IMG/VR virus record: IMGVR_UViG_3300035698_008918
Span: 1-41,920 of that record
DNA from: a virus
Strand: one strand, 5' to 3'
Length of the DNA stretch: 41,920 nucleotides
Shown: positions 10,349 through 40,574 of the stretch, one piece after another
Position numbering within the stretch: position 1 is the first letter of the stretch
How the letters are laid out: every line of letters starts with the position of its first letter
Made by a program: the position numbers and the translations under genes
The notes under the pieces: generated by a model
Databases searched by the model: none
Told to the model about the DNA's origin: nothing
Seen by the model: the letters and a program-made list of their open reading frames with translations, nothing else

Positions 10349-13300
10349 TTAAGCGAAAACTTTGTTTAATTCTACATTTGAAGTTCCATTAGCTGACGCT
10401 CCTCCTGCTCCTCCGTTTATATGTCCCAGTCCTCCATTATGAGATCCGTTTGTTCCTGCTCCAGAATAATCACCAGCACCTCCCCCTCCTTCTCCTCCTA
10501 CTCCATTTGTTTGTCCTGCTCCACCAGATCCCCCAGTACCACCATCCACTGTTATAGTTCCTGTATTAGCTGTCAATGAGTTATACAGTATTGAAACCAT
10601 TCCACCAGCACCACCCCCACCGCCTCCACCACCTCCACAGTCACCTGTTCCAGCTGCTCCATTTGAACCGTTTGCTCCATTAGCATTTATAGTACCAGAA
10701 AAATTTAATGCTCCTTTACTTTCAATTAATAAAGCTCCTCCTCCTATTCCACCATCTCCACCTGTTCCTGTACCTGTAGAAGCAGAGGCTCCTCCTCCTC
10801 CTCCTCCCCCTCCAGATCCAGGAGCAAGAAATAAAGCTTTAACATTTTGTTCTACATAAATTCCTAATAATCCAGCATAAGCGGTTCCCCCTGCTCCTAC
10901 AACTCCTCCTGCACTTCCTCCATATCCTCCTCCTCCGTAATGAATACTGCTATCAAGAATTAAATCACTATCAACTCCATCTGTTCCAGCAACTCCAGCT
11001 CCTACACCCGCAATTCCTCCAGTTCCTTTTGCTCCTCCTGTATTCAAAACTATTGTAGCACTTACAACAACAGTACCTTGACTTTTTAAATGTACTATTG
11101 TTCCTTTTGTTGCTGGGTTAGTAAAAGTTAAATTATTAGTAGCGATATTTATACTTGTGTAATTCTTAACAACAAACTCAGCGTTACCTAAATCTATATT
11201 AACTGTTCCACCAGAAGTATCTAAAGCACCATCAGTCCCATCTCCTCCAAAAGTTCCTTCACTTTCTACTACGTACCCTGATAGTGTAGCAGAAGTAGCT
11301 ATAAGATCTCCGCTTTGGTTTACCCTGAAAGGAGCAGAAGCAGGATTAGCATGGCCTGCATAGATCCTCCATGTTGCATCAGCACCGTCTAACACACCTA
11401 TATTATTTCCTGTACCTGCTGTGATAGTAGTGGCGGCTGATATTTGCGTACCAGTTATTGTAGCTGCTGCTATTTCATTTGCTGTTATTGTATTAGCAAC
11501 TATCTTAGCCGCTGTTATTGTAACAGCTGCTATTTCTGCGGCTGTTATTGTTAAAGCAGCTATATTACCTGCCACTATTGTATTAGCGGCTAATTCTGTA
11601 GTAGTAATAGTACCTGCAAAGATTTCACCAGCAGTGATCGTGTTAGCTGCTATTTGGTTAGCTGTAATAGTATTTGAAACTATATTTCCAGCAGAAACAG
11701 TTACTGCTGCAATTTCGTTTCCTGTTACAGCACTTGCTCCTAAATTTGCAGTCTCTATAAGCAAACCTCCATTTCCTCCAAAGACCTGGAAAGTAGCATC
11801 AAATATCGCAGAGTCTTCAGCAACAGCTATTAATATCTTTCCATCACCAACGGCGGTACCTGCTGTTGTTGTTGTTTGAAGTAAGGTCGTTGAAACAGCT
11901 ATGTCTAAATAAACATAAGTTAAAGCTGCCATGTTTCCTGTATCTGCTCCTGTAATACTATAAGCAGTAGCATCAGACATTGTAATAGTTCCTGAAGCCC
12001 ATGCAACTGTATTCTCATCAGATGAACTAAACACTAAATCATGTGACCATCCTTGTAATGCTGTTTTAGTCTTAGCAGAAGTTATTTCAGCGTTGCCTAT
12101 CTTTCCAGCTGTAATAGTAAGGTTAGCAATATTACCTGCTGTTATAGTTAAATTACCTATCTGTCCACCAACGATTCCTGCTGTACCACTTATTTGTGTT
12201 GTAGTTATTGTTCCACTTGTGATATTACCAGCAGTGATTGTTGTTGCACCTATATTCCCTCCAGTGATAGTAGCATTAGCTATTTGTCCACCTGTAATAT
12301 TAGCTGTGCCTGAAATCTGTGTAGTTGTTATTGTAGCATTAGCTATCTCCGTTGCGGTAATAGTAGCAGCTGCTATCTGTGTAGCTGTAACACTATTATT
12401 TGTTAGATACTGACCATCCATGTCTGATCCTGCTGCTAAGCCTGATATTACTACACTTGTAGTAAGTGTAACACTCGTAGCTGTAACAGCTCCTGCATTA
12501 GTCACTCGGAATGGAGCAGATGCTGGTGTTGCTGATCCTGCATATATAGCTGGATTAGTTCCTCCTGAATCTAAGCCTACAGTTGTTGCTCCAGATCCTG
12601 ATGTTAAAGAAGTTGCCCCTACTGTCCATCCTCCAATAGTTCCTGTAGTAGCTGAAATACTTCCTGTTATTGTAGCACTACTAGCAACTAGATTCCCTGA
12701 TTCATCTACTCTAAAAGGTGCAGACGACGGTGTTGCATGCCCTGCCCAAAACCTCCAGTCAACTCCTCCTGTTGCTTCACTGCTTAATCCTACTACTCCT
12801 GAATCAGCTGATAAAGTATAAGTACCCAAAGTCCAACCGCCGACAGTTCCTGTGTCAGCTGTTAAAGTTTTAGTGCTTATATTCATAGAAGAAATCTCTG
12901 TACCCGTGATAGTTGTTGCTGCTATTTCTGCGGCAGTAATAGTATTCGCTGCTATCTCGTTTGCAGTAACAGTATTAGCGGCTATCTCTGAAGCAGTAAT
13001 AGTGTTAGCTTGGATATTAGCTGCTGTTATGGATCCGTCTTCTATCTGTACTCCTGTAATAGCAACACCTCCTTCTCCTCCAAAGATTTGGAATATAGCA
13101 TCTGTAGTTGAGTTCTTTGCTACACCTATAAGCACCTTATTATTACCAACTGAAGTTGAAGCCGATGTTGTAGTCTGTAATACGGTTGTAGAAGCATCTG
13201 AATCTAAGTATATGTATGTCAAAGCAACTATGTCTCCTGTGTTACCAGCAACAATTGCGTAAGTAGTTGTACCATCAGCCATTGTAATAGTTCCAGATGT

Positions 13301-16894: not shown

Positions 16895-16945
16895 CGGTTT
16901 TTTAGTAGGCTAAAGGACAGAAACCGCCGGAAACTACCCTTTAGC
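16895..16945 (-). other. candidate H-type pseudoknot upstream of 185-aa gene
   Basis: GCTAAAGG (16909-16916) and CCTTTAGC (16938-16945) pair over 8 bp. CGGTTT (16895-16900) pairs with AAACCG (16921-16926) inside that loop, giving crossing helices of 8 and 6 bp. The element fills most of the 88-bp gap upstream of the gene starting at 16859. A role in translational control or RNA stability is inference. Confidence 0.5.
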
Positions 16946-16947
16946 TT

Positions 16948-17262
16948 TTAATCATATCCCTTGATCTTCTTACACATAAATATCCTCGTGTCTTTATTTA
17001 ATTCATTGAACTCTTTTGATGTAAATTTTATATTGTTTTTCTTGATCTCATAATCGTATATAGCTATCAACTCTCGCATCTTCTCTAGTTCGTTTATCTT
17101 AAATGCTTCTGTTTCTTCAATTCTAGTATCCCTAACATTTTTATATTTCACATGGTTAGTAAACTTTAACTCCTTAGTTATAACGATTTCTTTATCAGTC
17201 ATCCCTTCTCGTTTTAAATGAGGTTTAAGCTTATCAGCCGCTTTTGTAACTTTGTCTGTCAT
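16948..17262 (-). CDS. unrecognised 104-aa protein
   Basis: Lys/Glu-rich and helical. It begins MTDKVTKAADKLKPHLKREG and contains an acidic-basic segment NELEKMRELIAIYDYEIKKN. It lies 10 bp downstream of a tail-fibre gene and ends in TAA. No membrane segment or motif is seen. It could be a fibre-assembly helper by position, but nothing in the sequence proves that. Confidence 0.75.
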   Translation of the reverse strand: MTDKVTKAADKLKPHLKREGMTDKEIVITKELKFTNHVKYKNVRDTRIEETEAFKINELEKMRELIAIYDYEIKKNNIKFTSKEFNELNKDTRIFMCKKIKGYD

Positions 17263-31096: not shown

Positions 31097-31116
31097 TGGA
31101 GTCAAAATTAATTAAT

Positions 31117-31206
31117 AAAAAAAAGAGTTATGGGTTCATAACTCCGTTTAGGCCCCGACGACACGACGACGTCAAAACCTAAAGGGAGGTATGAACATTG
31201 TCGTGT
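31117..31206 (-). terminator. capsid-operon leader: pseudoknot-type hairpin plus terminator
   Basis: On the minus strand GAGTTATG/CATAACTC (31125-31144) forms a perfect 8-bp hairpin followed directly by eight T (31117-31124), a classic intrinsic terminator. Upstream, TTTAGG..CCTAAA (31147-31183) is extended by four U-G pairs and GACG/CGTC into a 14-bp stem with a 9-nt loop. Seven loop bases (GTCGTGT) are complementary to ACACGAC at 31200-31206, so a pseudoknot is possible. It separates portal-side genes from the scaffold/capsid genes and may set their ratio. Confidence 0.7.
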
Positions 31207-31228
31207 TTTCGGATTGTTAAATGCCTGT

Positions 31229-39391: not shown

Positions 39392-39442
39392 AGATTACTT
39401 TCTTAAAGCATTACTAATAATATACATGAGTTGGGAGGGTGA

Positions 39443-39660
39443 CTAACAAGACATTCGACATATATAGAAATGAAACTTTGTGTCGTTTCTTATTCTATAC
39501 CCTGTCCCAGTCCATTTATGCACCGGTCAGGCGTTAGCGACTTTCTTTCCCCTTTATCTTTTGGTCGCAGCAGATGCAAACCCCCAGTCCTAGTCCAATA
39601 CTAGGACTAACTCTCGTGATTAGTACTGCCATCCTAAACAGTCATAGAGTCACCACCTTT
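39443..39660 (-). other. gene-poor stretch, possibly an eroded small Cys-containing gene
   Basis: No intact gene. A 32-residue frame (39534-39632, minus) begins MAVLITRVSPSIGLGLGVCI and continues CDQKIKGKE. After frame changes the same strand gives SLTPDRCINGLG and then TGYRIRNDTKFHFYICRMSC to a TAG at 39443. Together these resemble the CxxC..DR..GY..N..C..C plan of small zinc or HNH proteins, but with two frameshifts. It may be an eroded gene or chance. A perfect 8-bp hairpin AGTCCTAG/CTAGGACT lies at 39586-39608, without a T-run. Confidence 0.25.
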
Positions 39661-39661
39661 T

Positions 39662-39690
39662 TTTATACTGGTCGTAGTTCATCCAGTGAG
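39662..39690 (-). promoter_or_regulatory. possible third unit promoter (CTCACT-17-TATAAA)
   Basis: -35-like CTCACT (39685-39690), 17-bp spacer, -10 TATAAA (39662-39667). Its position just after the conserved-end element copies the arrangement seen at 39944/39951, so it may be a worn copy of the unit promoters. No kissing hairpin pair was found downstream. Confidence 0.35.
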
Positions 39691-39841: not shown

Positions 39842-39914
39842 AAAAAAAAGAACTCTCGACGAGAAGAGTTCTATTATAGTCAGATCTGATGTCTCGTCAT
39901 CATCAAGTCTGAAC
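39842..39914 (-). ncRNA. kissing-loop RNA, unit B
   Basis: Predicted RNA of about 73 nt. Hairpin 1 (39880-39912) has a 5-bp stem (TCAGA/TCTGA), a 2x2 internal loop, a second 5-bp stem (TGATG/CATCA) and the 9-nt loop ATGACGAGA. Hairpin 2 (39849-39872) is AGAACTCT/AGAGTTCT with 8-nt loop TCTCGTCG, followed by eight T (39842-39849): an intrinsic terminator. GACGAGA in loop 1 is exactly complementary to TCTCGTC in loop 2, so the two hairpins can kiss over 7 bp. Unit A at 40449-40539 shows the same plan with a different 7-mer. Confidence 0.7.
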
Positions 39915-39920
39915 ACTTAT

Positions 39921-39949
39921 AACATATAGGATATTTATTCATAAGTCAA
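39921..39949 (-). promoter_or_regulatory. promoter of kissing-loop RNA unit B
   Basis: -35 TTGACT (39944-39949), 17-bp spacer, -10 TATGTT (39921-39926), reading leftward. Expected start near 39914, just at the foot of hairpin 1. It directly follows the end of the conserved-end element copy A (39951). Confidence 0.7.
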
Positions 39950-39950
39950 G

Positions 39951-40138
39951 ATTATCTTCTCAAGATTCTTGGTAATAGGATGTTTTTTAAATACATACAT
40001 TAGCTAAAATATGTATAAGCTCTTTGTTAGTTCAACTATAGACTTGTGGTCTAGTGCCTACGCCCAACACATCTTCCCAAAGCGAGTCATACTAGTTTTG
40101 ATTGCTTTATATTACCAAGAAACTTTAAAGGACAATTG
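39951..40138 (-). ncRNA. conserved-end RNA element, copy A
   Basis: Shares both end blocks with copy B: CAATTGTCCTTT..TTTCTTGGTAATA at the 5' end and TATTACCAAGAA..TTGAGAAGATAAT at the 3' end. These ends pair perfectly for 12 bp, then continue AAG/CTT after one mismatch; copy B has CAA/TTG around that place. The interior is unrelated in sequence but holds ATACATA/TATGTAT and TAGAC/GTCTA hairpins. It starts right after the stop codon of the 96-residue gene. Confidence 0.5.
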
Positions 40139-40429
40139 TTATTTCATTATTTTTTTATGAATTCTTTTAATATCTTTTAGCATTTGTTTATAATCTTCAT
40201 CATCCATACAAAGACTGTATTTTTTATTTTTTTCTCTATCCTGATAATCTTTTTCTTTAAGCAATTCCATGTAGTTAAAAATATCCACCTCGTTTTGACA
40301 ATCCCAATCTTGATCTTCTAATTCTTTCAACGCTTCTTTTGCTACTTTAAGTCTTTCCTCTTTAGGAACATATTTAAGTATAATATCTTCAAATAAACCT
40401 GCAATGCTTGAACCACTTGTCCATCCCAT
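40139..40429 (-). CDS. GWTSGS-type small phage protein, 96 aa
   Basis: Begins MGWTSGSSIAGLFEDIILKY and continues with helical charged segments VPKEERLKVAKEALKEL and EDQDWDCQNEVDIF. A similar opening (GWSSGS) and a D-x-D-x-x-x-E element are known from many small phage proteins of unknown function. The start is about 20 nt downstream of the terminator T-run of kissing-loop unit A, so its expression should depend on readthrough of that terminator. Confidence 0.75.
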   Translation of the reverse strand: MGWTSGSSIAGLFEDIILKYVPKEERLKVAKEALKELEDQDWDCQNEVDIFNYMELLKEKDYQDREKNKKYSLCMDDEDYKQMLKDIKRIHKKIMK

Positions 40430-40448
40430 AATAATTTGATTAAAGTAT

Positions 40449-40539
40449 AAAAAAAGAACATTTTAGTAAGAAAAATGCTCTTTTATGATTTATAAATCTG
40501 TGTCTTACTATCACAGGCTTATAAAAACCGTTTGTTTCT
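40449..40539 (-). ncRNA. kissing-loop RNA, unit A (leader of 96-aa gene)
   Basis: Predicted RNA of about 91 nt. Hairpin 1 (40489-40525) has a 7-bp stem (TTTATAA/TTATAAA), a 2x2 internal loop, a 5-bp stem (CTGTG/CACAG) and the 9-nt loop ATAGTAAGA. Hairpin 2 (40456-40480, extendable to 40484) is GAGCATTTT/AAAATGTTC with one G-U pair and 7-nt loop TCTTACT, followed by seven T (40449-40455). AGTAAGA of loop 1 and TCTTACT of loop 2 are exact complements. It shares fold, loop length and order with unit B, with unrelated loop sequence. Confidence 0.75.
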
Positions 40540-40545
40540 AAGAAG

Positions 40546-40574
40546 ATCATACACCATACATCATTCAAAGTCAA
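40546..40574 (-). promoter_or_regulatory. promoter of kissing-loop RNA unit A
   Basis: -35 TTGACT (40569-40574), 17-bp spacer, -10 TATGAT (40546-40551), leftward. Expected start near 40539. It lies just after the stop of the 70-residue gene at 40584. Confidence 0.75.

Follow-up and report, generated by a model that had tools for sequence, protein, structure and literature searches.

Two short units on the minus strand of the 41,920-base window (the whole stretch of DNA analyzed here, a separate virus record from an uncultured phage), which we call A and B, each consist of a hairpin with a 9-nucleotide loop followed by an intrinsic terminator, and the terminator loop is exactly complementary to seven bases of the hairpin loop. 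The observation is real, and the pairing of the loops is statistically real. Judged from their sequence, A and B are a genuine, well-formed, and unusual pair of RNAs, a variant of known loop-loop RNAs whose function we infer. They are best explained as separately terminated short RNAs, which would measure about 75 to 90 nt if the promoter-like sequences preceding them are used.

Unit A opens with the promoter-like pair TTGACT-17-TATGAT (40546..40574, minus strand, as are all the parts that follow), which has 10/12 matches and alone is not significant. Hairpin H1 (40489..40525), supported by folding and by its gap-free alignment with B, carries the 9-nt loop ATAGTAAGA on a stem of 7 bp, a G.U plus a C.A, and 5 bp. 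The loop 7-mer AGTAAGA (40503..40509) pairs with TCTTACT (40465..40471), its complement, which forms the loop of a terminator predicted by folding to have 13 bp and followed by a T run (40452..40484). The promoter-like pair of unit B is TTGACT-17-TATGTT (39921..39949; 9/12 matches). Its H1 (39880..39912; folding and alignment) presents the 9-nt loop ATGACGAGA on a stem of 5 bp, a C.A plus a U.G, and 5 bp, and the 7-mer GACGAGA (39892..39898) is complementary to the terminator loop TCTCGTC(G) (39858..39864), whose length could equally be counted as 8 nt, or as 6 nt if a U.G pair closes it. The B terminator has 8 to 9 bp and then a T run (39849..39872). In the scan, 13 nt separate the inner hairpin from the terminator in A and B alike. 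Unconstrained RNAfold returned exactly these hairpins, two simple ones in each unit and with no junction, so that direct reading and folding together bear out an earlier sequence-only reading in which both units had a 9-nt loop (AU plus seven bases) matched exactly by the terminator loop. That reading also described a 2x2 internal loop in H1; this is really a G.U wobble beside a C.A mismatch, with the order swapped between A and B. It had further proposed TTGACT-17-TATGWT promoters, and the hexamers and their spacing do occur in both units, but such matches are no commoner in the stretch than in shuffles (20 found versus 29.5 expected; not enriched). The promoters are plausible mainly because hexamers and spacing are common to both units.

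The minus strand of the window encodes a terminase, a portal, a capsid, and other late genes, and the region from about 38.7 to 41.8 kb holds small genes along with a YopX-like protein, an HNH protein, and a RusA-like resolvase. Relatives found through the terminase reach at most 57% identity, and a closer relative, L291, was found through the portal (63%), in a collection that may leave out near-identical records. The previous ORF ends 10 nt before the promoter-like pair of unit A, and a 96-aa ORF (40139..40429, minus strand; PHROG 11183, unknown function) has its start codon about 22 nt past the A terminator. Downstream of unit B lie about 500 nt of noncoding sequence, with no immediate gene. 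Among the window ORFs, no opposite-strand gene of known function overlaps A or B. Unit B is flanked by two paralogous noncoding elements on the same strand: C1 (39951..40138), which has a long imperfect terminal stem and ends 1 nt before the B -35 hexamer, and C2 (39693..39838), which starts just past the B terminator. In both, the ends form such a stem; these ends are 86 to 93% identical and the interiors have diverged; the end motif was absent in an IMG/VR pattern scan. After C2 comes stretch D (39400-39690, minus strand), which is noncoding, GC-richer, and strongly structured by prediction, with no Rfam or tRNA match. Readings of the region as tRNA or tmRNA were unsupported.

The 96-aa ORF begins in the TTTAA..ATG context that is usual in this phage. 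Shine-Dalgarno sequences are absent; instead, TTAA[CT] lies about -14 to -10 from the ATG in 17 of the 24 window ORFs of at least 150 aa. The same motif precedes the ATG of 8 of 13 ORFs in L291, and every other fetched locus has it in 25% or fewer. Adenine is enriched at -3, -6, and -11/-12 of the window starts, which resembles the start context reported for a Bacteroidetes species, with its adenines at -3, -6, -12, and -13 (PMC6847099). This context suggests that the host initiates translation without Shine-Dalgarno sequences, and if the host does have Bacteroidetes-like starts, promoter hexamers of the E. coli type would be a poor guide.

The two units can be compared base by base. The H1 core of B aligns to that of A without gaps, and six stem pairs are changed on both sides, as expected from the earlier claim of two paralogous units with differing stem sequences. 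Four of the seven loop-loop pairs are likewise double-changed, and the other three (AGA with TCT) stay the same; the loop 7-mers, said to be fully changed, thus differ at only 4/7 bases. All four loop-pair changes are transitions that could have passed via G.U. The loop helix is nevertheless 100% paired in both units (n = 2 sequences), so the idea of a preserved loop-loop helix holds, with four compensated pairs and exact complementarity on either side. Sliding the partner columns by one to three reduces the double changes from 11 to between 0 and 3. The pattern is consistent with compensatory change, as seen in a comparison of two sequences rather than in a family-wide covariation test; it rests on two paralogues in one genome because no homologue was found in the searched collections.

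Predicted energies separate the two loop codes. As isolated loops, the cognate duplexes come to -6.1 kcal/mol for A-A and -10.8 kcal/mol for B-B, compared with -0.1 and -1.5 kcal/mol for the two crosses; cognate pairing so far exceeds cross pairing that the orthogonality suggested from the sequence stands as a prediction. The loops are accessible in the ensemble, with a mean paired probability of at most 0.14. Their complementarity is loop-sized, at 7 bp, or 8 if the flanking U-A of A or the flanking U.G of B is counted, and since it stops at the loop borders, a loop-loop helix is its natural reading. Forced nested pairing costs 8 to 11 kcal/mol relative to the two hairpins. We considered and rejected a long-range antiterminator helix, given where the complementarity ends and how much weaker the nested form is.

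The strict scan required 6 or more complementary loop nucleotides, stems of at least 5 and at least 6 pairs, and a gap of at most 20 nt between the hairpins; it found exactly two matches in the window, A and B. Dinucleotide-preserving shuffles gave 5 matches in 600, or 0.008 per window, and no match occurred in 3.2 Mb of loci from other phages and bacteria. With 0.008 expected, the Poisson probability of two or more matches is about 3 in 100,000, a figure that overstates the surprise somewhat because the scan was devised after the units had been seen.

Searches for homologues of A and B were negative throughout. Rfam 15 covariance models had no match in the window at the gathering score, in keeping with the earlier remark that no described family with this exact architecture was known, and a permissive Rfam search returned only unrelated, chance-level matches. 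DNA searches found no match to A or B in phage records and none to unit B in plasmid records. In IMG/VR, a pattern consisting of the promoter, ATNNNNAGA, and a T run gave, among the matches listed, none with loop pairing, and a stricter version gave 7 matches, none with the architecture. No protein relatives of the RusA-like, 96-aa, and 116-aa proteins were found. The terminase and portal relatives, L291 included, contain neither unit. A structure model, R2, detected no A/B homologue in 14 related records and none in 682 genomes (395 + 287, from two phyla, around two terminase-bearing genomes); this last empty result carries little weight. A possible third unit in the terminase relative L005 (4840-4925; a hairpin, a terminator, and 5 to 7 complementary nucleotides), which precedes a long noncoding stretch, was not significant. 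In both L005 (4830-5460) and another terminase relative, L001 (1190-1650), the terminase is preceded by a short promoter-like/terminator unit and then by several hundred nucleotides of noncoding, structured sequence. L005 also has a group I intron match (16914-17096, 82 bits).

The R2 match in L291 (12678-12742, E = 0.0075) proved not to be a homologue of A or B; it belongs to another RNA, which we call element E. Element E lies between the portal and the next late gene (31105-31215 on the minus strand of the window; 12635-12750 on the plus strand of L291) and was found in these two records only. An antiterminator stem and a terminator share an arm and exclude each other, and a hairpin loop segment, GTCGTGT in the window and GTAGAGT in L291, is exactly complementary to an upstream segment, ACACGAC or ACTCTAC, respectively, so that the two phages differ compensatorily. 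We regard element E as a candidate pseudoknot attenuator. Like A and B, it is a phage RNA linked to a terminator, with 7 bp of loop pairing and compensatory differences, but the partner of its loop is a single strand lying upstream, and its antiterminator shares an arm with the terminator.

Several known systems offer partial likenesses. The phi29 pRNA, which packaging requires as an intermolecular ring, has two different complementary loops that are paired between molecules. A and B are also phage RNAs with two complementary loops per molecule; however, the pairing of the pRNA loops covers 4 nt in a larger fold, that RNA is not organized around an intrinsic terminator, the present phage is not phi29-like, and A and B have no sequence or structure match to pRNA in Rfam. 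In the purine riboswitch, the 7-nt loops of two hairpins in one RNA (L2-L3) contact each other, but with few Watson-Crick pairs, short parallel stems, and a ligand core, none of which is seen in A or B. ColE1 RNA I/RNA II, FinP/traJ, and other kissing antisense RNAs share with A and B loops of about 7 nt and a fully paired loop-loop helix, and FinP, too, has a terminator hairpin among its recognition hairpins; their partner loop, though, is on an opposite-strand transcript, whereas both loops of A or B are in one RNA. The A terminator, about 22 nt before a gene, has the leader position seen in attenuators based on intrinsic terminators, but A and B have no alternative helix competing with the terminator stem. 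Among natural RNA homomers, phi29 is listed as having demonstrated relevance, and the bacterial and phage noncoding RNAs OLE, ROOL, and GOLLD self-assemble partly by covarying kissing loops (PMC12286853). These three RNAs have hundreds of nucleotides and many contacts, unlike A and B with their approximately 75 to 90 nt and a single complementary loop pair.

The earlier reading had proposed an attenuator, an orthogonal RNA pair, or a decoy. Tentatively, we favor the explanation that most of the loop-loop pairing takes place between one copy of an RNA and another of its kind. A and B would have arisen by duplication, each with two hairpins whose loops are complementary; loop 1 of one copy would pair with the terminator loop of another, and reciprocally, to give a self-recognizing dimer or multimer in the manner of phi29 pRNA, possibly for RNA stabilization, as a scaffold, or for silencing by self-pairing. 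The units would then have drifted to different loop codes, with the result that each RNA would recognize its own kind. Geometry argues for this pairing in trans. In a crude rod model with coaxial stacking, which ignores helix flexibility, a coaxial kiss within one finished molecule would place the hairpin bases 84 to 96 Å from each other, although the linker spans only about 32 Å, and an intramolecular kiss would require a bend of more than about 105 degrees (105 to 140 with a 4-nt linker). Such a bend favors either intermolecular pairing or cis pairing before the terminator closes. Several points count against pairing in trans: the promoters are weak evidence, no homologue was found in the collections searched, many natural homodimers of RNA pair through one self-complementary loop, and the place of unit A before an ORF suits a leader equally well.

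The last of these points makes a conditional terminator a close rival, one we consider a realistic if somewhat doubtful possibility. Here the units would be leaders in which cis pairing of loop 1 with the terminator loop, as the latter emerges, delays termination, a full helix and a closed terminator stem being hardly compatible; readthrough would enter the 96-aa ORF from A, or C2, D, and rusA from B, unless loop 1 were occupied. The close fit of A between its flanking ORFs agrees with this, as does the rod-model opposition of cis pairing and terminator closure, and both this phage and L291 carry element E, a terminator-linked RNA before a late gene. Unlike in ordinary attenuators, however, the terminator stem here has no competing helix, the terminator hairpins are stable relative to the nested alternative, and B precedes noncoding sequence and not a gene directly. 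It is unlikely that the two units act as regulators of the antisense type, with loops directed at other loops or at mRNA and with internal complementarity that keeps them inactive until a target competes. Antisense recognition loops carry YUNR-type motifs, and the terminator loops do have the YUNR-like CUUA and CUCG; AGTAAGA also recurs at further window sites, but the A 7-mer sites have no common position near starts and the B 7-mers occur nowhere else in the window. Chance complementarity between the loops of ordinary terminators, which would fit the presence of only two copies and the failure to find homologues, is very improbable in the face of two compact matches where 0.008 were expected and of compensated changes at both the loop pairs and the stem pairs.

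Self-recognition in trans would make A and B an orthogonal RNA pair in which the terminator serves as a recognition hairpin and a loop code that changed after duplication sets the partners or terminator closure, an account that we prefer with considerable reserve. To our knowledge, few natural RNAs recognize their own kind. If the account is true, A and B, as duplicates with two loop codes, would provide a small natural case of orthogonal recognition between RNAs, and the loop of an intrinsic terminator would be able to act as a site of recognition. If instead the explanation by a conditional terminator is true, the units would represent control of transcription through the loop of a terminator rather than through its stem.
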